Of a stretch of 41,638 nucleotides of DNA, positions 8,850 to 41,638 are shown piece after piece. The position numbers were made by a program, and so were the translations under genes. The notes below the pieces were generated by a model that saw only the letters and a program-made list of their open reading frames with translations, had not been told where the DNA came from and ran no database searches. The number at the start of each line of letters is the position of its first letter. Position 1 is the first letter of the stretch. The DNA is taken from assembly GCF_001545155.1 (NCBI RefSeq), contig NZ_CP014226.1, positions 1,423,207-1,464,844 on the forward strand, given 5' to 3'. Source of the DNA: Halomonas chromatireducens (GTDB lineage: Bacteria; Pseudomonadota; Gammaproteobacteria; Pseudomonadales; Halomonadaceae).

Positions 8850-9015
8850 GCGGTATGCCGCTCCTTGTGGCTCGGCAGCCCCGGGGGCCGCCCGAAAACG
8901 CTTAACAATGTTAGAATGACCACCGCTCGGCGGGGTGAGCGGCATGCAGTGGCTGTCCGATTGTTGCAGAGCCCCGACAGCGTTACCAGCAGGATATCTC
9001 GATCAGGAGCCCTTC

Positions 9016-9555
9016 ATGAGTGATTCCACATGCCCACCGGCCGCCGCCGAGGATGACCTGCCGCGCTGGTATGTCATCCAGTGCAAGGGAGGGGAGTCCT
9101 TTCGTGCCGCCGAGCATCTGGGGAACCAGGGCTATGACCTCTTTCACCCAGTGCTGGAGGTGCAGAAGAAGCGGGGGGGGAAGCTGGTCTGGTTGAATGA
9201 ACCACTGTTTCCCCACTATCTATTCATTCGCCTTGATCGCGTTGCCAGCAACTGGCGTCCGATTCGTTCCACCCGCGGCGTACTTAAGATCGTTACATTC
9301 GGCGATAAGCCATTGCCGGTAGAAGATGCCCTGGTCGACACGCTGCGCGAGAAGGGGATCGGGGATCTGAATGCCACCGCCAACGTCTATTTTCGCGCCG
9401 GCGAGATCGTCGAGATCACCGAGGGCCCCTTCAAGGATCTCCAGGCGGTCTTTTCCAGCCACAAAGGCGAGGAGCGTGCCATCGTCCTGCTCAATCTGCT
9501 GAACCGCCAGCAGCGACTGGTACTGCCCGTGGCTCAGCTGCGCCCCCAGGACTGA
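9016..9555 (+). CDS. rfaH: Transcription antiterminator RfaH (NusG paralogue)
   Basis: The 179-residue protein has an NGN domain starting WYVIQCKGGESFRAAEHL, then EPLFPHYLFIRLD and RSTRGVLKIVTFG, all close to E. coli RfaH. A C-terminal KOW domain follows, with ITEGPFKDLQAVF and IVLLNLLNRQQ. RfaH is recruited to RNA polymerase at ops elements in non-template DNA and suppresses pausing and Rho termination in long surface-polysaccharide operons. Two perfect ops sites occur in this window at 34,058 and 39,590. The protein has about 14 extra N-terminal residues compared with E. coli (162 aa). ATG at 9016 sits shortly after GATCAGGAG. Confidence 0.92.
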   Translation: MSDSTCPPAAAEDDLPRWYVIQCKGGESFRAAEHLGNQGYDLFHPVLEVQKKRGGKLVWLNEPLFPHYLFIRLDRVASNWRPIRSTRGVLKIVTFGDKPLPVEDALVDTLREKGIGDLNATANVYFRAGEIVEITEGPFKDLQAVFSSHKGEERAIVLLNLLNRQQRLVLPVAQLRPQD

Positions 9556-31087: not shown

Positions 31088-31137
31088 TTCCCCAGCGTTT
31101 GATCATTGTGGAAACGCCGTAACATCATAGATCGACG

Positions 31138-31164
31138 CGCCGCCCCAGGGCGGCGTTCTCGTTT
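31138..31164 (+). terminator. Intrinsic terminator after the CigR-like gene
   Basis: CGCCGCC-CCAG-GGCGGCG followed by TTCTCGTTT forms a seven-pair GC stem with a T-rich tail, 51 bp past the stop codon. Confidence 0.7.
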
Positions 31165-31336
31165 GCGCCATATACGCAGCAGAAGCGTTGACGCTCATAT
31201 ATTTGCCTATTTGCTCCTATTTGGCCAAACTGATCCAGCGTATAAAAATAGGCCTACATATTGTCATGGAGCGCTGCTTGTTGTATTTATAGGCGCCGCA
31301 TCCTGTGAAATTCTCCCAACCCAAGGAACACACACT
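31165..31336 (+). promoter_or_regulatory. AT-rich upstream region of the mvaT-like gene
   Basis: This 172-bp segment is strikingly AT-rich for the region, with TTGACG at 31188 and TATAAAAATAGG at 31241 as possible promoter parts, although no pair is properly spaced. AT-rich promoters are preferred targets of MvaT-type silencers, so autoregulation is plausible but unproven. AAGGAA lies before the ATG at 31337. Confidence 0.4.
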
Positions 31337-31714
31337 ATGTCTCTTCTCAGTGAATTCATGCAGAAAGAGCAGCAGCTCAAGCAGCTCCAGGCCGAAATGG
31401 ATCGTCTTCAGAACGATGACCGCCTGAAGGCCGAGCTGGCGTTCAAGGACAAGCTTGAAGCGCTGATGCGCGAATTCAACAAGAGTTCAGCCGACGTTAT
31501 CAGCCTGCTGGATCCGCAGGGCAACAAGCCTGCCGCCAAGGCATCTACAGCCACCGGTGGCGGTCGTCGCAAGCGCAAGCTGAAGATCTACAAGAACCCG
31601 AACACCGGTGAAGTCGTGGAAACCCGCGGCGGTAACCAGAAGACACTGAAGGCGTGGAAGGACGAGCATGGTTCAGACAAGGTCGAGAGCTGGCTGGTTC
31701 GCGTCGAGGAGTGA
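31337..31714 (+). CDS. mvaT: MvaT-family H-NS-like xenogeneic silencer
   Basis: The 125-residue protein opens MSLLSEFMQKEQQLKQLQAE, with a coiled-coil oligomerisation region (1-60). A basic linker GGGRRKRKLKIYKNPNTGEV leads to the DNA-binding motif ETRGGNQKTLKAWK and ends near VESWLV. The KQYKNP-type linker and GGN-TLK-WK motif are signatures of Pseudomonas MvaT/MvaU, not enteric H-NS. These proteins bind AT-rich DNA and silence acquired genes, fitting the accessory neighbourhood. ATG at 31337 matches the family start exactly. Its own terminator follows. Confidence 0.92.
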   Translation: MSLLSEFMQKEQQLKQLQAEMDRLQNDDRLKAELAFKDKLEALMREFNKSSADVISLLDPQGNKPAAKASTATGGGRRKRKLKIYKNPNTGEVVETRGGNQKTLKAWKDEHGSDKVESWLVRVEE

Positions 31715-34025: not shown

Positions 34026-34074
34026 CAGGGCAAGGGAAACGCCCGGAACAATCCCCGGGCGGTAGCGTGCCTGG
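34026..34074 (+). promoter_or_regulatory. ops / JUMPstart-like element 1
   Basis: The perfect ops sequence GGCGGTAGCGTGC is at 34058-34070. It is preceded by a GCCCGG - AACAATCC - CCGGGC hairpin and by CAGGGCAAGGGAA. The same 49-nt arrangement recurs at 39,557-39,606 with only a few changes. ops is the recruitment site for RfaH, encoded at 9016-9555. It lies 518 bp upstream of the epimerase gene. Confidence 0.92.
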
Positions 34075-34106
34075 AAAGTGATAAAGCGCCTCAACGAAGA
34101 GAATCA

Positions 34107-34247
34107 TTGTTGGAGCGCTCGTTCCCATCGCGACTGGCGCCGCAAGGCGCCCCGGCGGAGGCCGCAGCGCTGGCGATATCCGCAACGTTTCCAACACCGC
34201 CGGGAGTCCTTCGGCCTCCAGTCGTGATCTGAAGATACTCCAACAGC
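34107..34247 (+). repeat. MITE-like repeat, full copy 1
   Basis: Nested inverted arms are visible: an outer TTGGAG with CTCCAAC and an inner CGACTGG with CCAGTCG, around a GGCGCC-rich centre and GGCGATATCCGCAACG. Length is about 140 bp. The next copy follows after 28 bp containing GGCACCGTTGGTGGA. Confidence 0.85.
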
Positions 34248-34275
34248 GGGGTGGCACCGTTGGTGGAAAGGGGCG

Positions 34276-34430
34276 CTGTTGGAGCGCTGCTTTGCATCGC
34301 GACTGGCGCCGCCAGGCGCCTTGACGGAGGCCACAGCGCTGGCGATATCCGCAACGTTTCCAACACCGCCGGGAGTCCTTCGGCCTCCAGTCGCCGATGC
34401 GTCGGACCGGATCTAAAGATACTCCAACAG
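34276..34430 (+). repeat. MITE-like repeat, full copy 2 (longest form)
   Basis: This 155-bp copy has perfect 9-bp ends CTGTTGGAG and CTCCAACAG. It retains the fuller right arm CCAGTCGCCGATGC, which pairs with the left arm GCATCGCGACTGG. It therefore looks closest to the ancestral palindromic form; other copies lack a segment of the right arm. Confidence 0.88.
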
Positions 34431-34459
34431 CGGGGAGGCACCGTTGGTGGACAGGATTG

Positions 34460-34533
34460 CTGTTGGAGCGCTGGTTTCCATTGCGACTGGCGCCGCAGGC
34501 GCCTCGGCGGAGGTCGCAGCCTCGGCGATTTCC
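34460..34533 (+). repeat. MITE-like repeat, left half only
   Basis: This copy starts with CTGTTGGAG and continues through GCGACTGGCGCCGCAGGCGC and GGCGATTTCC, then loses similarity, 54 bp before the epimerase start codon. Confidence 0.75.
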
Positions 34534-34587
34534 ACATCAGCGCTGAAAAACCGAAATGACGTCAACACACAAGGGTAGGGACATCGC

Positions 34588-35598
34588 GTGAAACTGCTGA
34601 TCACCGGCATGGCGGGCTTTATCGGACATGCCGTGGCCAAGCGTCTCAGTGGGCAGGGCCACGAAATCGTCGGTATCGACAATCTCAACGAGTACTACGA
34701 TGTCTCTCTCAAGCAGGCGCGGCTGGACGACTTGGCTGCCAACTGCGAAGACGTGCGCTTCATCAAGATGGACCTCGGCGATCGCGTCGGCATGGCCGCG
34801 CTGTTTCGCGACCAGCGCTTCGACCGGGTGATCCACCTGGCGGCCCAGGCCGGTGTGCGCTACTCGCTGGAGAACCCCCACGTCTACGCTGACTCCAACC
34901 TGATCGGCCACCTCAACGTGCTCGAGGGCTGTCGCCAGCAGAAGGTGAAGCATCTGGTCTACGCCTCGTCCAGCTCGGTCTATGGCATGAACGCCAAGAC
35001 CCCGTTCGACACCGCCGACAACGTCGACCACCCCGTCAGCCTCTACGCGGCCACCAAGAAGGCCAACGAGCTGATGAGCCACACCTACGCACACCTTTAC
35101 GACGTACCGACCACCGGGCTGCGCTTCTTCACGGTATACGGCCCCTGGGGCAGGCCCGACATGGCCATCTTCAAGTTCGTCAAGGCGATGTTCGAAGGCA
35201 AGCCGATCCAGGTCTACAACCACGGCGACATGTCGCGGGACTTCACCTACATCGACGACATCGTCGAAGGCATCGTGCGTGTACTCGACGTAATACCCCA
35301 GGCCGGCGCCGCCCGCCCCGGTGACGTGGCCACCCCGGACAAGAGCGCCGCTCCCTATTCGCTCTACAACATCGGCTACGGCGCACCGCTATCACTGATG
35401 GACTTCATCCGCGCCCTGGAAACCGCCACCGGCCGCGAAGCCATCTGCGAATACCTGCCCATGCAGCCCGGCGACGTCCCCCGCACCTGGGCCGACACCG
35501 AAGCCCTGCTGCAAGCCACCGGCTACCGCCCCAAAGTTGGCGTCGACGAAGGCGTAGCGCGCTTTGTCGAATGGTACCGCGGGTTTTATAACGTTTAG
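34588..35598 (+). CDS. UDP-glucuronate 4-epimerase-like NAD-dependent epimerase
   Basis: The 336-residue protein is an extended short-chain dehydrogenase/epimerase. It has TGMAGFIG (6-13, with Met in place of the usual Ala), DNLNEYYDVSLKQARL, HLAAQAGVRYSLENP, the catalytic SSSSVYG and YAATKKANE, and GRPDMAIFKF. The DNLNxYYD and AGVRYS motifs are typical of UDP-glucuronate 4-epimerases (LpsL/Cap1J type), giving UDP-galacturonate for surface polysaccharide. The substrate of the enzyme would come from Ugd, encoded 4 kb downstream. It lies behind ops element 1 and repeats. Confidence 0.88.
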   Translation: MKLLITGMAGFIGHAVAKRLSGQGHEIVGIDNLNEYYDVSLKQARLDDLAANCEDVRFIKMDLGDRVGMAALFRDQRFDRVIHLAAQAGVRYSLENPHVYADSNLIGHLNVLEGCRQQKVKHLVYASSSSVYGMNAKTPFDTADNVDHPVSLYAATKKANELMSHTYAHLYDVPTTGLRFFTVYGPWGRPDMAIFKFVKAMFEGKPIQVYNHGDMSRDFTYIDDIVEGIVRVLDVIPQAGAARPGDVATPDKSAAPYSLYNIGYGAPLSLMDFIRALETATGREAICEYLPMQPGDVPRTWADTEALLQATGYRPKVGVDEGVARFVEWYRGFYNV

Positions 35599-35628
35599 CC
35601 GTGTATCCACCATGGCAGGAAAAAGCAG

Positions 35629-35778
35629 CTGTAGGAGCGCTGCTCCGCATCGCGTCTGGCGCCGCAGGCGCCCGGCAGCCACCACCAAGGCATGACAAAA
35701 CAGCTGTTGGAGCGCTGGTCCCCATCGCGACTGGCGCCGCAGGCGCCCGGCAGTCACCACCAAGGCATGACAAAACAG
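35629..35778 (+). repeat. Two tandem 75-bp short repeat units
   Basis: Units begin at 35629 (CTGTAGGAGCG) and 35704 (CTGTTGGAGCG), exactly 75 bp apart. Each contains CATCGCG(A/T)CTGGCGCCGC and AGGCGCCCGGCAG(C/T)CACCAC and ends in AAGGCATGACAAAACAG. The right arm of the full element is replaced by this ending, which makes a distinct short subfamily. Confidence 0.85.
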
Positions 35779-35919
35779 CTGTTGGAGCGCTGCTCCGCAT
35801 CGCGACTGGCGCCGCAGGCGCCTCGGCGGATGCCGCAGCGGCGTCGGTTCTCTCTAAGCTACGCAACACCGCCGGGAGTCCTTCGGCCTCCAGTCGTGAT
35901 CTGAAGATACTCCTACAAG
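35779..35919 (+). repeat. MITE-like repeat, full copy 3
   Basis: This copy starts CTGTTGGAGCGCTGCTCC, exactly 75 bp after the previous unit. It keeps GGGAGTCCTTCGGCCTCCAG and TGATCTGAAGATACTCC and ends with CTCCTACA, a one-base variant of the terminal repeat. Confidence 0.85.
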
Positions 35920-35952
35920 GTGGTAACTGCCTGACACGGCAAGAAATATCAG

Positions 35953-36025
35953 CTGTTGGAGCGCTACTCCGCATCGCGACCGGCGCCGCCAGGCGCCCGG
36001 CAGCCACCACCAAAGCATGGAAACA
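35953..36025 (+). repeat. 75-bp short repeat unit, third copy
   Basis: This unit starts CTGTTGGAGCG and contains GGCGCCCGGCAGCCACCACC followed by AAAGCATGGAAACAG. It belongs to the short subfamily and ends about 30 bp before the start of the 104-residue gene. Confidence 0.8.
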
Positions 36026-36054
36026 GTTGTTGGATCTTGTATAGGAAGACTGTC

Positions 36055-36369
36055 ATGAGCATCCGCGAGTCCGACTGGAAAGCCTTCAAGCGGCTTCGAG
36101 CAGTGGCACTGGAACGGTTTTCGCAGCGCGTGCTGGATGAGTGCCAGGAGATCTACTCAAAACGGGATGCTACGGCTCATGAGCGCTACGGCGAGCTGTA
36201 TGACTTAATCCATGAGCGTAATCGCGAGATGGCGCATGCCTTTGATCACTTCAGCCGTTCTAAAGCGCTTTTGTCCCTTCGGCTAATCCGGATGCATAAC
36301 CTGTTGACGGAGGCTGAGGTGGCCGAGTTCAGCGAGGAAACGCAGTTCGCGACTGATGTCGACAGGTAA
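36055..36369 (+). CDS. Conserved small charged protein, function unknown
   Basis: The 104-residue protein (MSIRESDWKAFKRLRAVALE onward) is rich in Arg, Glu and Ala and predicted to be helical. HERYGELYDLIHERNREMAH and a final EVAEFSEETQF are visible. The composition suggests a small soluble helical-bundle protein; no signal peptide, membrane span or catalytic motif is seen. Similar proteins are, to my recollection, widespread in Pseudomonas and Halomonas but uncharacterised. AGGAAG lies about 8 nt before the ATG at 36055. Both sides are bounded by dispersed repeats. Confidence 0.75.
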   Translation: MSIRESDWKAFKRLRAVALERFSQRVLDECQEIYSKRDATAHERYGELYDLIHERNREMAHAFDHFSRSKALLSLRLIRMHNLLTEAEVAEFSEETQFATDVDR

Positions 36370-36380
36370 CGTAAACCCGA

Positions 36381-36533
36381 CGTTGGAGCGCTCGGTTCGG
36401 CGCTCCGACTCCCCATCGCGACTGGCGCCGCAGGCGCCTCGGCTGAGGGCGCAGCGCTGGCGATATTCTCAACGTTGCCAACACCGCCGGGAGTCCTTCG
36501 GCCTCCAGTCGTGATCTGAAGATACTCCAACAA
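36381..36533 (+). repeat. MITE-like repeat, full copy 4
   Basis: This copy runs from GTTGGAGCGCTCGG to GATACTCCAACA and has the inner pair CGACTGG/CCAGTCG. It contains a small extra inverted piece (GGTTCGGCGCTCCGACTCC) in the left arm. It ends 19 bp before the beta-CASP start codon. Confidence 0.85.
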
Positions 36534-36552
36534 CACCGCACCACAGGTTCTC

Positions 36553-38010
36553 ATGGACGATTACCCCCAGATCCTTCACCACGGCGCTGCGAATGGCGTC
36601 ACCGGCAGCTGCCACCGGCTGCAACTCGCCGTGGACCGCGCCCTGCTGATCGACTGCGGCTTGTTCCAGGGCCAGGATGCTGATCACCTCGACAGCCTCG
36701 AGCAGCACACCGTGCGCTTCTCGGTGGAGGACGTGCTGGCCCTGGTGGTCACCCACGTGCATATCGACCACATCGGTCGGCTGCCTTACCTGCTGGCTGC
36801 GGGCTACAAGGGGCCGATTCTCTGCTCGATACCGTCGGCACGGCTACTGCCATTGGTCATAGAGGATGCGCTCAAGGTCGGCTTCACCCGCGACCGCGCC
36901 CTGATCCAGCGCTTCCTGGAAGAGGTGCAAGGCCGCCTGGTTGCCATCGACTACAAGACCTGGCACACCGTCATCGACGACGAGCGCGACTGCATCAAGG
37001 TCAGGCTCAAGCGTGCCGGGCATATCCTCGGCTCCGCCTACGTGGAAGTGGATGCCCAGGACAAGGCCAGCGGCAAAAGCCAGCGCACCGTCTTCTCCGG
37101 CGACCTGGGCGCACCTCATGCACCGCTGCTGCCCGCGCCCAAGCCGCCGTACCGTGCCGACGTGCTGGTACTGGAATCGACCTACGGCGATCGCCTGCAC
37201 GAAGACAGGCGCCACCGCCGCGACCGGCTCAAGGCCGCCATCGACAGGGCACTGGAGAACGGTGGCACCGTGGTGTTCCCCGCCTTCAGCGTGGGCCGTA
37301 CCCAGGAGCTGCTCTACGAACTGGAAGGGCTGATACACAACGCAAGAAGCGAGCGCTGGCGCAAGCTCGAAATCATCGTCGACTCGCCCCTGGCCGCCCG
37401 CTTCATAGAGGTGTACCGCGAACTCAAGCCCTGGTGGGACGCCGAGGCACACAACCGCCTGCGCAGCGGCCGCCACCCGCTCAGCTTCGAGAACCTCTAC
37501 ACCGTGGACGATCACGAAGCCCACGAGCGCACCGTCGACTACCTGGCCGAGAGCCACCGCCCCGCAGTGGTCATCGCCGCCAGCGGCATGGTCAGCGGGG
37601 GCAGGGTGGTGAACTACCTCAAGCGCATGCTGGGCAACGAACGCCACTGCGTCCTGTTCACCGGCTACCAGGCCCACGGCACCCCCGGCCGCGACATCCA
37701 GCGCCATGGCCCCAACGGCGGCTGGGTTGAGCTGGACGGCCAGCGCATCGACATCCGCGCCCGGGTGGAAACCGTCAGCGGCTACTCGGCCCACGCCGAC
37801 CAGTTTGATCTGTTGAACTTCGTGCGCCGCATGCGTCACCCACCCCGGGAAGTGCGCCTGGTACACGGTGACCCTCGCGCCCAGGCCGCACTCCAGGCCA
37901 AGCTACTGGAATGGGCCGAAGGGGCAGGGCATGAGTTGATCGTGACGCTGGGCGGCGATTACGTTGCCGAGAAAACAGAGAACGAAGGCGCGGTTCCGAG
38001 CCTGACATGA
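36553..38010 (+). CDS. Beta-CASP metallo-beta-lactamase-fold RNA hydrolase
   Basis: The 485-residue protein has the MBL metal motif THVHIDHIGRLP (67-78), a metal-binding Asp in FSGDLGAPH, ESTYGDR at the start of the beta-CASP domain, VFPAFSVGRTQELLYEL, and the later GYSAHADQ and VHGD motifs (motifs B and C). This is the bacterial CPSF73/YSH1-like group, expected to act as endo- or exoribonucleases. Length and motif order are normal. No Shine-Dalgarno is obvious before the ATG at 36553, and a structured repeat ends 19 bp upstream. It does not belong functionally to polysaccharide synthesis. Confidence 0.9.
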   Translation: MDDYPQILHHGAANGVTGSCHRLQLAVDRALLIDCGLFQGQDADHLDSLEQHTVRFSVEDVLALVVTHVHIDHIGRLPYLLAAGYKGPILCSIPSARLLPLVIEDALKVGFTRDRALIQRFLEEVQGRLVAIDYKTWHTVIDDERDCIKVRLKRAGHILGSAYVEVDAQDKASGKSQRTVFSGDLGAPHAPLLPAPKPPYRADVLVLESTYGDRLHEDRRHRRDRLKAAIDRALENGGTVVFPAFSVGRTQELLYELEGLIHNARSERWRKLEIIVDSPLAARFIEVYRELKPWWDAEAHNRLRSGRHPLSFENLYTVDDHEAHERTVDYLAESHRPAVVIAASGMVSGGRVVNYLKRMLGNERHCVLFTGYQAHGTPGRDIQRHGPNGGWVELDGQRIDIRARVETVSGYSAHADQFDLLNFVRRMRHPPREVRLVHGDPRAQAALQAKLLEWAEGAGHELIVTLGGDYVAEKTENEGAVPSLT

Positions 38011-38076
38011 CGCTCCAAGCTGGGCTTTAGTGCAACGCTAGCGGTTCTACAACCAAGGACGGAAGGGCACGAATAC

Positions 38077-39030
38077 ATGGCTGGCCACGACAATAGCTAC
38101 AAACTGCTGTTTTCCCACCAGCGAATGGTAAGAGACCTGCTTACCGGCTTCGTACACGAAAAGTGGGTTGAAGAGCTGGATCTCGATTCGCTGGAGAAGG
38201 CGAGTGGCTCCTACGTAACCGATGAGCTGCGCGACCGTGAAAGCGACATTGTATGGCGAGTGCGATGGGGAGATACCTGGCTCTACGTCTATCTGCTCAT
38301 AGAATTCCAGAGCCGGGTAGACCGCTACATGCCCGTGCGAATCATGAGCTATGTCGGGTTACTTTATCAGGACCTGATACGCCAGAAGGCGTTCACTCCA
38401 AGCGGAAAATTACCGCCTGTGCTGCCTATTGTGCTCTACAACGGTGAAAGACGCTGGAATGCGGCACAAAATGTCGCTGAGATGGTCGAAAGCGTTAGCG
38501 GTGGCCTGGAAAAGTATTGCCCCGCTGTGCGTTACCTACTGCTCGACGAAAAGGCGATCGTCAACGATCCTGATTGGCCCGACGAAACGCGCAATGTGGT
38601 CGCAGCGCTCTTCAATCTAGAGCATTATCGGGGTATCGATGAAGCCCTGAACGTTCTAGGGCACCTGGTCGAATGGCTGTACGCAGATCAGCAAGAAGAG
38701 CTGCGCAACGCATTCACCAGCTGGCTGAAGCAAGTCTGGGCCAGGCGTCAGGCACCAAAGGAGCAGTGGCAGGAACTCAAACGATTGGAAGATCTGCGGG
38801 AGGTATACACCATGCTGCAAGAACGGACCGGCCAATGGCCGCAGCGCTGGAAACAGGAAGGCCGTGAGGAAGGCCGTGAGGAAGGGCTTGAAGAAGGGCG
38901 CGAGAAAGCACTTCGCAGCACGGCCCGTAAGCTGATCCAGACCACCGACCTGAGCGACCGGGCTATTGCCGACGCTACCGGGTTGCCCTTGGGCGAAGTT
39001 GAAGCCATGCGCGACGAGGCCCAGCACTGA
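38077..39030 (+). CDS. Rpn-family PD-(D/E)XK nuclease / putative transposase
   Basis: The 317-residue protein belongs to the Rpn (recombination-promoting nuclease, YhgA-like) family. HDNSYKLLFSHQRMVRDLL is the typical start. The nuclease core is RESDIVWRV (Asp57) plus LLIEFQS (Glu76, Gln78), followed by PVRIMSYVGLLYQ and PVLPIVLYNG. The C-terminal third has EGREEGREEGLEEGREK repeats and a helical tail. Relatives are DNA endonucleases, some acting as toxic phage-defence proteins. GGAAGG lies about 12 nt before ATG 38077. A strong internal start at 38812 would give a C-terminal short form. A nucleotidyltransferase gene follows after 12 nt. Confidence 0.9.
   Translation: MAGHDNSYKLLFSHQRMVRDLLTGFVHEKWVEELDLDSLEKASGSYVTDELRDRESDIVWRVRWGDTWLYVYLLIEFQSRVDRYMPVRIMSYVGLLYQDLIRQKAFTPSGKLPPVLPIVLYNGERRWNAAQNVAEMVESVSGGLEKYCPAVRYLLLDEKAIVNDPDWPDETRNVVAALFNLEHYRGIDEALNVLGHLVEWLYADQQEELRNAFTSWLKQVWARRQAPKEQWQELKRLEDLREVYTMLQERTGQWPQRWKQEGREEGREEGLEEGREKALRSTARKLIQTTDLSDRAIADATGLPLGEVEAMRDEAQH
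38812..39030 (+). CDS. Internal in-frame start: C-terminal short form of the Rpn protein
   Basis: Within the Rpn gene, ATG at 38812 is preceded by GCGGGAGG (38796-38803) at 8 nt spacing, a far better ribosome binding site than that of the full gene. Translation would give a 72-residue protein starting MLQERTGQWPQRWKQEGREE, containing the charged repeats and the C-terminal helices but not the nuclease core. In E. coli, Rpn genes encode such short C-terminal products, which act as antitoxins of the full-length nuclease. Position and size fit; expression is not shown. Confidence 0.55.
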   Translation: MLQERTGQWPQRWKQEGREEGREEGLEEGREKALRSTARKLIQTTDLSDRAIADATGLPLGEVEAMRDEAQH

Positions 39031-39042
39031 GCTGATAAGCCC

Positions 39043-39360
39043 ATGCGCCTGACGGATACCCAACGCCAAACCATCCAGCATATCGTTCATGAAGAACTTG
39101 GTGAGAGCGCCACAGTGAAATTGTTCGGCTCCCGCCTGGATGACACCGCCCGTGGCGGAGATATCGATTTATATGTCGAGCTGGAAGAGCCCATCGAACA
39201 TCCCGCGCAGCTCTCTGCCCGGCTCAGCGTGCGCATCATGCGTGCCATGCAAGGGCGCAAGGTCGACGTACTCTTGAGTGCTCCGAATCTCAGTGAGCAA
39301 GCGATACACAGGATGGCGCGTGAGCAAGGGGTTCGCCTGACTCCGAGCAAAGACACCTGA
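39043..39360 (+). CDS. Minimal nucleotidyltransferase (MNT-type), orphan
   Basis: The 105-residue protein has the nucleotidyltransferase core VKLFGSRLDDTARGGDIDLY (GS then GGDIDL) and the third acidic residue in KVDVLLS. Small proteins of this type are usually antitoxins paired with a HEPN-domain RNase toxin, which they AMPylate. No HEPN gene is adjacent. Instead it follows the Rpn nuclease gene after 12 nt, so the two are very likely co-transcribed. The downstream side is an ops element and ugd. Confidence 0.85.
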   Translation: MRLTDTQRQTIQHIVHEELGESATVKLFGSRLDDTARGGDIDLYVELEEPIEHPAQLSARLSVRIMRAMQGRKVDVLLSAPNLSEQAIHRMAREQGVRLTPSKDT

Positions 39361-39556
39361 TCCAGAGTTGATCCTGTTGGCAATGGCCTAAGCTGCCGCA
39401 TGATATTCACCATACTCCAGCAGCCTGCCCCTCAAGGGCCTCTATACTTACCTTTCTTTACCAATTGCCGCATAGAGCCCGAGTGCGGCCATCGCGTAGA
39501 ATATCGGCCTGACCGAAAGGGCAGGCACTCCGCCACCGGCAGAGGCGATGGTCACT

Positions 39557-39606
39557 CAGGGCATGGGAATGCGCCCGGTTCAATCCCCGGGCGGTAGCGT
39601 GCCTGG
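39557..39606 (+). promoter_or_regulatory. ops / JUMPstart-like element 2
   Basis: The perfect ops sequence GGCGGTAGCGTGC is at 39590-39602, preceded by the GCCCGG - TTCAATCC - CCGGGC hairpin and CAGGGCATGGGAA. It is nearly identical to element 1 over 49-50 nt. It lies only 40 bp before the ugd start codon, so the leader is short here. The rest of the 282-bp spacer (39,361-39,642) shows no gene. Confidence 0.92.
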
Positions 39607-39642: not shown

Positions 39643-40965
39643 ATGAACGTTACGGTATTCGGTACGGGATACGTAGGGCTGGTGCAAGGTGCCATTCTGG
39701 CGGACGTGGGGCATCACGTGATCTGCGTGGATGTCGACGCCGACAAGGTCGAACGCCTGAAGCAGGGCGACATACCCATCTTCGAACCCGGCCTGGAGCC
39801 GCTGGTGAAGGACAACCACGCCGCCGGTCGGCTGGAGTTCACCACCGATGCCGCCGCCGGCGTCAAGCACGGCCAGGTGCAGTTCATCGCCGTGGGCACC
39901 CCGCCGGATGAAGACGGCAGCGCCGATCTCAAGTACGTGCTGGCCGTGGCCGCCACCATAGCCGAACACATGGAGCGCGACCAGATCATCATCGACAAGT
40001 CCACCGTGCCGGTGGGCACCGCCGACAAGGTGCGCGAGAAGGTCGACTCGGTGCTGGAAGCCCGCGGCCGCAAGGAGCTGCGCTTCGACGTGGTCTCCAA
40101 CCCCGAGTTCCTCAAGGAAGGTAGCGCCGTCGCCGACTGCCAGAAGCCCGACCGCATCATCATCGGTACCTCCAGCAAGCAGACCGAAGACGTGATGCGC
40201 GAGCTCTACGCCCCCTTCAACCGCAGCCGTGACCGGGTGATCGTCATGGACGTGCGCAGCGCCGAGCTGACCAAGTACGCCGCCAACTGCATGCTGGCCA
40301 CCAAGATCAGCTTCATGAACGAAATGGCCAACCTGGCCGAGCGCCTGGGCGCCGATATCGAAATGGTACGCCAGGGCATTGGCTCCGACCCGCGCATCGG
40401 CTACCACTTCATCTACCCCGGCGTGGGCTATGGTGGCTCCTGCTTTCCCAAGGACGTCCAGGCGCTGATCCGCACCGCCGGCGACATCGACTTCGACGCC
40501 AAGGTGCTCAAGGCGGTGGAAGCGCGCAACATGGATCAGAAGACAACCCTGTTCCAGAAGATCAGCAAGCACTTCAATAACGACTTGAAGGGCAAGACCT
40601 TCGCCATCTGGGGCCTAGCCTTCAAGCCCAATACCGACGACATGCGCGAAGCCCCCAGCCGTGTGCTGATGGAAGCGCTATGGAATGCCGGCGCCAAGGT
40701 GCAGGCCTTCGATCCCGAAGCCATGGAAGAGGCCCAGCGCATCTACGGCAGCCGTGACGACCTCTCTCTGTGCGGTACCAAGGAAGCGGCCCTGCGCGGT
40801 GCCGATGCCCTGGTGATCGTCACCGAATGGCAGCTATTCCGCGCCCCGGACTTCGACCTGATCCAGGAACAGCTTGCCGAGCCGGTGATCTTCGATGGGC
40901 GGAATATGTTTGAGCCGAAGAGGATGGCGATTAAGGGCTTTAGCTACTATTCGGTTGGGCGCTGA
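39643..40965 (+). CDS. ugd: UDP-glucose 6-dehydrogenase
   Basis: The 440-residue enzyme oxidises UDP-glucose to UDP-glucuronate with two NAD+. It has GTGYVG (7-12), VAVGTPP-like [17 protein letters not shown] (120-126), NPEFLKEG (153-160), the catalytic Cys267 in [12 protein letters not shown], and [17 protein letters not shown] at the start of the C-terminal domain. Length is normal for the bacterial dimeric form. Its product is the expected substrate of the epimerase encoded at 34,588. It begins directly after ops element 2 and is followed by wecB after 100 bp. Confidence 0.95.
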
Positions 40966-41065
40966 AGCAAGCGCCCCTAACCACGTAATCTAATGAAATC
41001 CGTTACCGTCGAGTGACGCGGCCGCGTCATTGCAGAATCCACCTCTCACCGAAACTGAAGTCCCC

Positions 41066-41638
41066 ATGCCTATCAAGACTCTTTGCGTGTTTGGCACGCG
41101 TCCCGAAGCCATCAAGATGGCTCCCTTGGCCTTGGCTCTCGCTACCGACGAGCGCTTCGACGCCAAGGTGTGCGTGACCGGCCAGCACCGCGAAATGCTA
41201 GATCAAGTGTTGGACCTGTTCGAACTCGTGCCCGACCATGACCTGAACATCATGAAACCGGGGCAGGACCTGACCGATGTGACCACGGCGATTCTGCAGG
41301 GTATGAAAGAGGTACTGGAGGAGGTCAAGCCCGATATCGTGCTGGTGCATGGCGACACCTCGACCACACTTTCCACTACGCTGGCTGCTTACTATCAGCA
41401 GATCCCTGTGGGGCACGTGGAAGCGGGGCTGCGCACCGGCAATATCTATTCACCCTGGCCGGAAGAAGCCAACCGCAAGCTCACCGGTGCCTTGGCCGAG
41501 CTGCACTTCGCGCCCACGGATCGCTCCCGGCAGAACCTGCTGGAGGAGGGCGTGGCTCCTACCAAGGTGTACGTGACCGGTAATACCGTGATCGATGCAC
41601 TGGTCGACGTGGTACGTAAGATCGATACCAGCCCAGTA
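41066..41638 (+). CDS. wecB: UDP-N-acetylglucosamine 2-epimerase, N-terminal part (cut by window edge)
   Basis: The first 191 codons are present. [20 protein letters not shown] is the family start; [23 protein letters not shown] and HVEAGLRTG, with the active-site Glu region, follow. The enzyme converts UDP-GlcNAc to UDP-ManNAc, a precursor for enterobacterial common antigen, O-antigen and capsule. It follows ugd on the same strand with no terminator between, so it is probably part of the RfaH-dependent transcript. The remainder lies beyond the window. Confidence 0.93.

Follow-up and report, generated by a model that had tools for sequence, protein, structure and literature searches.

The two ops sites and the genes behind them

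This analysis concerns two copies of ops, the DNA element at which the elongation factor RfaH is recruited, in a stretch of 41,638 nucleotides (nt) from Halomonas chromatireducens (contig NZ_CP014226.1, positions 1,423,207 to 1,464,844). The whole stretch is referred to as the window, and positions are counted from its first letter. The 13-mer GGCGGTAGCGTGC, which is the 12-nt ops plus a C, occurs exactly at 34058-34070 (ops 1) and 39590-39602 (ops 2), both on the forward strand and in gene orientation, as had been described in the initial annotation, which was made from the sequence alone. Both copies are followed by CTGG. The 12-nt GGCGGTAGCGTG lies upstream of the genes that it would serve, on their predicted non-template strand, as is characteristic of ops. 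The two copies share an identical run of 26 nt that begins 8 nt before ops, and they can be aligned further upstream with a 1-nt gap.

The genes at the locus are encoded on the forward strand. The first recognised gene after ops 1 codes for a NAD-dependent nucleotide-sugar epimerase (34588-35598; PF01370, 8.5e-58), and its GTG start codon at 34588 is 518 nt past the 13-mer. It is followed by a small open reading frame (ORF), a beta-CASP metallo-ribonuclease-like protein (36553-38010; PF10996, 7.8e-34), an Rpn-family nuclease (38077-39030) and a nucleotidyltransferase-like ORF (39043-39360), for which PF18765 gives 23.2 bits, below the cut-off of 26.9. A ugd-like gene (nucleotide-sugar 6-dehydrogenase, 39643-40965; TIGR03026, 463 bits, cut-off 189.8) starts 41 nt past the 13-mer of ops 2. 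The next gene is wecB-like (UDP-GlcNAc 2-epimerase, 41063-41638; TIGR00236, 283 bits, cut-off 210) and is cut by the window end. The claim that sugar-nucleotide genes lie downstream of each ops is thus borne out, with the epimerase after ops 1 and the UDP-sugar dehydrogenase and wecB after ops 2. A single assembly N (G000:1464845) marks the window end; beyond it follow trigger factor and clpP (sequence read by eye) and then clpX.

Halomonas alkalisoli (G006) has kept both orthologous ops, 6.7 kb apart, and the same gene order (epimerase 96%, beta-CASP protein 95%, ugd 98% and wecB 95%, the latter over 192 aa). As differences, an extra 365-aa ORF follows ops 1, the small ORF and the epimerase are in swapped order, and the Rpn matches are split into two separate pieces. 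In G006, G027 and G028, an ops is likewise preceded by a beta-CASP gene, which is therefore considered part of the shared arrangement. Two same-strand ops at most 15 kb apart were found in 8 of 37 genomes (G000-G036, list read by eye). It had been proposed that the two ops represent two separately loaded transcripts, which is plausible given the conservation in H. alkalisoli and these ops pairs; nothing was found in favour of the alternative, a single operon split by an old insertion.

RfaH and the ops sites of the genus

RfaH, a NusG paralogue, is encoded at 9016-9555 on the forward strand (the ORF, 8935-9555, is open from a GTG at 8935; the ATG is at 9016). This assignment from the initial annotation is confirmed by TIGR01955, with 170.7 bits and an equivalog cut-off of 144.5. 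The best match in PDB is an E. coli RfaH chain (3.4e-26), while the first NusG is at 2.7e-12. Among the residues of E. coli RfaH with roles in ops contact and autoinhibition, K10, R73, E48, F130 and R138 are identical, while I93 is replaced by V and R23 by N (alignment read by eye). Part of these roles is taken from PMC7593976. A match above the RfaH cut-off was found in 89 of 90 Halomonas genomes. There are at most two matches at 1e-10 per genome, and the second ones listed (50-81 bits) are under the cut-off.

Exact and near matches to ops were controlled with the reversed pattern. The exact 13-mer occurs 304 times in the 90 genomes, compared to 36 copies of the control, and is present in 84 of them. 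The genome under study (one contig, 3.97 Mb) has four copies and one of the control; its ops at 1002877 precedes wza and wzc. Together with the near-universal RfaH, this enrichment supports the proposed RfaH/ops regulon, which here precedes polysaccharide genes.

The region 2.3 kb upstream of ops 1 encodes a silencer of the MvaT/MvaU family (31106-31714; 158 bits, cut-off 75). In E. coli, H-NS filaments are countered by RfaH (PMC9765446), so that MvaT and RfaH would be a local parallel.

A predicted leader fold upstream of ops

The ops leaders of the genus sort into families. Among 96 of them, 28 are of the polysaccharide type (first type), 34 of a second type (see below) and 34 unclassified, the classes being drawn by eye from the sequences; for the unclassified leaders, a few downstream proteins were scanned. 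The leaders of the window have the order S1a (GGGC), S2a (GGGA), S1b (GCCC), S2b (UCCC), 2 nt and ops. In leader 1, helix S2 would pair GGGA (34034-34037) with UCCC (34052-34055), which ends 2 nt before ops; in leader 2 (39559-39587), it would pair 39565-39568 with 39584-39587. The proposed helix S1 pairs GGGC (34028-34031) with GCCC (34041-34044) in leader 1 and 39559-39562 with 39573-39576 in leader 2.

The fold comparisons were restricted to ops sites with at least 70 nt of upstream sequence, and identical 100-nt stretches were removed, which reduced the 304 genus sites to 96 distinct ones, or 98 with the two of the window. A multi-genus leader scan returned at least 119 stretches, of which 117 sites were used. 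No leader could be recognised in L070, L072 and L173, and these were excluded from the picked list and retained in the 117; since L072 is the match from Stutzerimonas, this genus is not counted among those bearing the leader. The scan pattern fixed part of the 3' arm of S2, while genus sites were picked by ops alone, so that only the latter test S2 free of this bias. Leader swaps or shuffles served as controls for the folds.

S2 has two-sided variants within the genus (GAGAUU/AAUCUC, GGAGU/ACUCC, GAGG/CCUC, UCAGGG/CCCUGG, UCGAGG/CCUCGG and UCGGAU/AUCCGG) and outside of it (UCAGGA/UCCUGG in Pseudomonas, UUAGGA/UCCUAG in an Alcanivoracaceae metagenome-assembled genome). The covariation alignment (95 leaders, 91 distinct) was built with an S2-only model and leans towards this helix; 98.6% of its cells are paired in S2, with two-sided changes in 4 of 4 pairs, and the joint covariation score of S1 and S2 is reached by 0 of 500 shuffles. 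In alignment-free comparisons, the energy of S2 is better in a site's own leader than in swapped leaders: -6.07 versus -4.78 for the 98 genus sites (standard deviation (sd) 0.36; best of 300 recombinants -5.86) and -6.43 versus -5.16 for 75 non-redundant ones (sd 0.41; best of 300 -6.32). Stem scores for lengths 5 and 6 peak 0-2 nt before ops. S2 is thus supported, at the level of sequence comparison, as a predicted conserved helix directly before ops.

For S1, own and swapped leaders were compared in 52 non-redundant leaders among the scan matches listed, giving -8.68 versus -8.02 (sd 0.17; best of 200 -8.44). Two-sided variants include GGGAA/UUCCC, AGGC/GCCU, CGGC/GCCG, CGGGU/ACCCG and CCGUU/GACGG. 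In the 78 leaders without GGGC, a leader's own interior exceeds other non-GGGC interiors (p = 4e-5). An earlier alignment (A1) was rejected for S1 counts because loop lengths shift S1 by one column; it was replaced by the S2-only model and the alignment-free swaps. The covariation support for S1 is suggestive. A pseudoknot at -16 kcal/mol or below can be formed by 31 of the 98 genus sites, compared to a mean of 5.2 (largest 10) in 10 dinucleotide shuffles. Formed around the 5' arm of S2, S1 would probably give an H-type pseudoknot.

Two window-family leaders, L081:4440-4485(-) and L133:1157-1201(-), have an altered ops (GGTGGAAGCGTG and GGCGATAGTGTG, respectively) and have kept S2, while GGGC/GCCC is retained only in L081. 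These could be decayed sites or sites of another factor.

Relation to JUMPstart and other known systems

The leader had been regarded as a lineage-specific JUMPstart. This was rejected in view of relatives in Pseudomonas, Alcanivorax and Marinobacterium. A conserved stem-loop has been reported for JUMPstart (Weinberg 2010, PMC2864571), and in a literature search for JUMPstart and pseudoknots this was, judged by title, the only article bearing on JUMPstart. The corresponding Rfam model (RF01707) as printed contains only S2. It gives a weak match to leader 2 (39557-39601, 18.7 bits, gathering cut-off 35), in which its stem pairs the same two segments as S2, a helix directly before ops; leader 1 is not listed at E <= 10. 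The RF01707 cut-off was reached in 0 of 31 Halomonas genomes and in 1 of 14 control genomes, and a class-wide search for the E. coli-type JUMPstart found it in 0 of 370 genomes. In common with JUMPstart, the Halomonas leaders end in ops, have a helix closing immediately upstream of GGGCGGUAGCGUG and precede polysaccharide operons. They differ by their letters and by the proposed additional crossing helix S1, which would fit E. coli too. The same helix order is possible in six E. coli JUMPstart loci (RefSeq; galF/rfb, wza, ABC-transporter operon). In five of them the arms are, in this order, CAGU, (C/U)UGGU, GCUG and GCCA(G/A), followed by 0-1 nt and ops; in the sixth (L330), S1 has only 3 bp. 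In L328, a C-G pair of S2 is replaced by U-A. Window-type leaders precede wza, wzc, ugd and wecB genes, and 10-12 of 53 first-type downstream proteins have wza/wzz domains.

Structured leaders tied to processive antitermination are also known from RNAs of the EAR, put and nut type. These resemble the Halomonas leader in coupling a structured leader RNA to long-range readthrough; unlike them, the Halomonas leader would pair an RNA fold with a DNA-read ops and RfaH. Class I hairpin-stabilised pauses (his) likewise have an RNA helix close behind the paused polymerase, with a spacing of about 11 nt in the case of the his pause hairpin, whereas S2 would end 12-14 nt from the RNA 3' end. The ops pause has been described as one of class II, a backtrack-type, pre-translocated pause (PMC6391919, PMC11001881). 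With E. coli RfaH/ops antitermination, Halomonas shares the RfaH equivalog and the exact 12-nt ops in leaders of cell-surface operons. It differs by the locus with two ops 5.5 kb apart, compared to one ops per unit as reported for E. coli CFT073 (PMC9765446), and by further types of leader in the genus, including one that is found at integrons and defence genes.

Interpretation and alternatives

We consider it likely that RfaH is indeed recruited at both sites, that these are JUMPstart-like leaders which each precede a separate polysaccharide unit, and that the upstream RNA fold is part of the signal. RNA polymerase pauses at U11 of ops in E. coli, where RfaH reads the non-template strand and stays on, and the same would apply to Halomonas. 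U11 is the 3' end of the RNA in the paused E. coli complex, and the hybrid has 11 bp once RfaH is bound (PMC11001881). Since S2 closes 0-2 nt before ops, its last pair would be found 12-14 nt back from the RNA 3' end at the pause, just outside the 10-11-bp hybrid. In the most likely mechanism, the fold would form as the polymerase reaches ops and might block backtracking past U11, which would hold the complex in the register needed by RfaH. It may also aid the escape of the RfaH-bound, hyper-paused complex; in E. coli, this escape is hindered by backtracking after further extension and is helped by GreA and, less so, by Mfd (PMC11001881). It is an old puzzle that JUMPstart extends over about 39 nt although the 12-nt ops can load RfaH. 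A covarying helix, probably a pseudoknot, just outside the hybrid is a testable answer, as it may fix the register and oppose backtracking.

Several results weigh against this reading. When likely coding sites are removed (66 left), S2 is 2.5 sd past the recombinants, yet the best of 300 wins (-7.3 versus -6.57), and there is a second, lower stem-score peak 14-16 nt before ops. Half of the genus sites (50 of 98) fail to reach a pseudoknot of -12 kcal/mol, and leader classes 2 and 4 are devoid of it. S1 in 49 non-redundant genus leaders is at -6.37 versus a mean of -5.68, but the best recombinant reaches -6.57. Compared to GGGC-type interiors, the own interior of the 78 non-GGGC leaders has p = 0.07, and it beats 90% of these interiors in 12 of 78 cases, with 7.8 expected. 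Three first-type loci lead into citrate-transporter-like genes. Finally, ops has been described as sufficient by itself, both in E. coli reporters and on templates used in vitro (PMC2871177, PMC5995543), so that the fold cannot be essential for recruitment. The pIA349 template has the pause at U43 after a G37 start complex (PMC2871177); its transcript up to ops has only 43 nt, apparently too few to include a native leader.

This sufficiency of ops, together with the conserved stem-loop reported for JUMPstart, suits the simpler explanation that only ops and the stem-loop S2 matter and that S1 is a by-product of GC-rich conserved sequence. S1 alone, although 88.5% paired, is indeed not significant on the S2-fitted alignment, where 134 of 500 shuffles match its covariation score. 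We regard this as a real possibility, though one that we rather doubt: S1 in own leaders exceeds all 200 recombinants among the non-redundant scan leaders listed, and the same order of S1 and S2 is possible with different letters in Halomonas, Pseudomonas and E. coli. That both ops are chance or dead sequence and recruit no RfaH is very unlikely. An upstream promoter search at the window ops sites found none beyond chance, the 12-mer with up to one mismatch is not enriched in the genome under study (54 sites versus 61 for the reversed control), and ops 1 is far from its gene, behind repeats. Against this stand the enrichment of exact sites in the genus, the retention of both leaders in H. alkalisoli, and the distribution of RfaH.

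The initial annotation had drawn a 6-bp hairpin (GCCCGG/CCGGGC) directly before ops, within a conserved element of 49-50 nt, and suggested that this hairpin contributes to pausing. The inverted repeat is real. It has, however, 7 bp (CGCCCGG/CCGGGCG; 34040-34046 with 34055-34061 in leader 1), the core of its 5' arm consists of the same bases as the 3' arm of S1, and its 3' arm covers the first 4 nt of ops. As a pause hairpin it might strengthen the ops pause, or it might be a post-escape switch that replaces the pseudoknot. The repeat is stable in both window copies (-15.0 and -15.7 kcal/mol), a hairpin of this kind is possible at -7 kcal/mol or below in 86 of the 117 scan leaders listed, and a 5-bp part, up to G1 of ops, could form at the pause. 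We nevertheless consider this role improbable. At the U11 pause, nt 1-4 of ops lie in the RNA:DNA hybrid, so that the hairpin could be fully formed only after the polymerase leaves ops. It is 88.6% paired on the S2-fitted alignment, and its covariation score is reached by 152 of 500 shuffles, which is not significant. Two-sided changes like AGGC/GCCU preserve S1 and disrupt the hairpin. Among the 117 scan leaders listed, 28 form the pseudoknot without the hairpin, including the named Pseudomonas, Marinobacterium and Alcanivorax leaders examined and some Halomonadaceae, and only one shows the reverse. As a conserved fold, GCCCGG/CCGGGC was rejected on the grounds of covariation and spread.

A second type of ops leader near integrons and defence genes

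The second type of ops leader is found at L004, L045, L194, L225, L263 and other loci, and in the genome under study at G000:C1:2035690-2035702(-) and G000:C1:2200410-2200523(-). Its 60 downstream proteins matched 160 PADLOC families, including Hachiman HamA/HamB and Lamassu LmuA, while those of the first type matched a single family, by one protein. Pfam matches were to AbiV (twice), putAbiC, GmrSD and SIR2-like domains, and also to acetyltransferases, glyoxalases and transposases. Ten of the second-type proteins were also checked one by one: PADLOC matches at 1e-8 were obtained for six, of which two (PDC-S34 and DruF2) are weak, and for the remaining four there was no match.

The main leader of this type has a predicted 5-bp boxB-like hairpin with a CNGARGA-like loop. 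Its alignment leans towards the hairpin, as it comprises 22 of 28 prepared leaders and omits six without such a hairpin (it was lacking in 11 of 30 leaders when first looked for); 89% of cells are paired, and the covariation score is reached by 0 of 500 shuffles. Two-sided changes affect 4 of 5 pairs, a count equalled by 59 of 500 shuffles. An S2-like stem gave -4.46 versus -3.51 (sd 0.53), with wrong segments anchored in many rows. A motif found after the second-type ops (3 of 26 and 0 of 8 matches) was discarded; the rows show the antisense 3' end of the intI gene.

A model of the second-type leader has matches in 75 of the 90 genomes. The integron integrase (TIGR02249) is above its cut-off for 28 genes in 27 of the 90. 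At 23 of these genes, a second-type leader faces the 3' end at a distance of 17-88 nt; two have one at about 2 kb and three have none. Of 145 leaders listed, 37 have an integrase gene, either whole or broken, at a distance of up to 500 nt. In the genome under study, the fourth exact ops lies next to an integrase fragment (211 bits, cut-off 265), and there is one second-type leader with a variant ops (GGCGGTAGCGTC). The direction of the second-type leader is that of integron cassettes. L376 carries a 66-nt repeat pair (ATAACAAG...GCGTT) that resembles the attC consensus and may be an attC; in the L375 stretch searched, no such repeat was listed. Viral contigs had 0 matches for GGTAGG plus ops. 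They had 8 matches of another leader motif, which are taken as chance because none carries ops. A second-family leader is located less than 1 kb downstream of rfaH itself in G007, G021, G022, G025 and G032.

In the limited literature library searched, nothing in print was found on ops leaders at integron or anti-phage cargo. From the genome comparisons, we regard this family as a lead. It is tempting to speculate, at somewhat less than even confidence, that one Halomonas RfaH serves two regulons via two folded leader families: a pseudoknot plus ops for polysaccharides, and a boxB-like hairpin plus ops that reads antisense through intI into cassettes and anti-phage genes. RfaH would then be an on-switch for integron cargo, and JUMPstart would in general be a register-setting RNA pseudoknot. 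If true, an RfaH site behind intI would tie the expression of cassettes, and phage defence, to processive antitermination.

Further observations at the locus

With the model for Cas14 of type VII CRISPR, the beta-CASP protein encoded between ops 1 and ops 2 reaches 308 bits (cut-off 800, a non-member), and with that for aCPSF1 it reaches 258 bits (cut-off 580). In L039, the first long ORF downstream of ops encodes a relative.

A dispersed GC-rich palindromic repeat is found at 34108-34512, 35607-36005 and 36395-36511. Its 26-nt core has 72 copies in the genome at up to 3 mismatches (23 forward, 49 reverse; reversed control 0), often in arrays, and the repeat occupies much of the interval between ops 1 and the epimerase gene.

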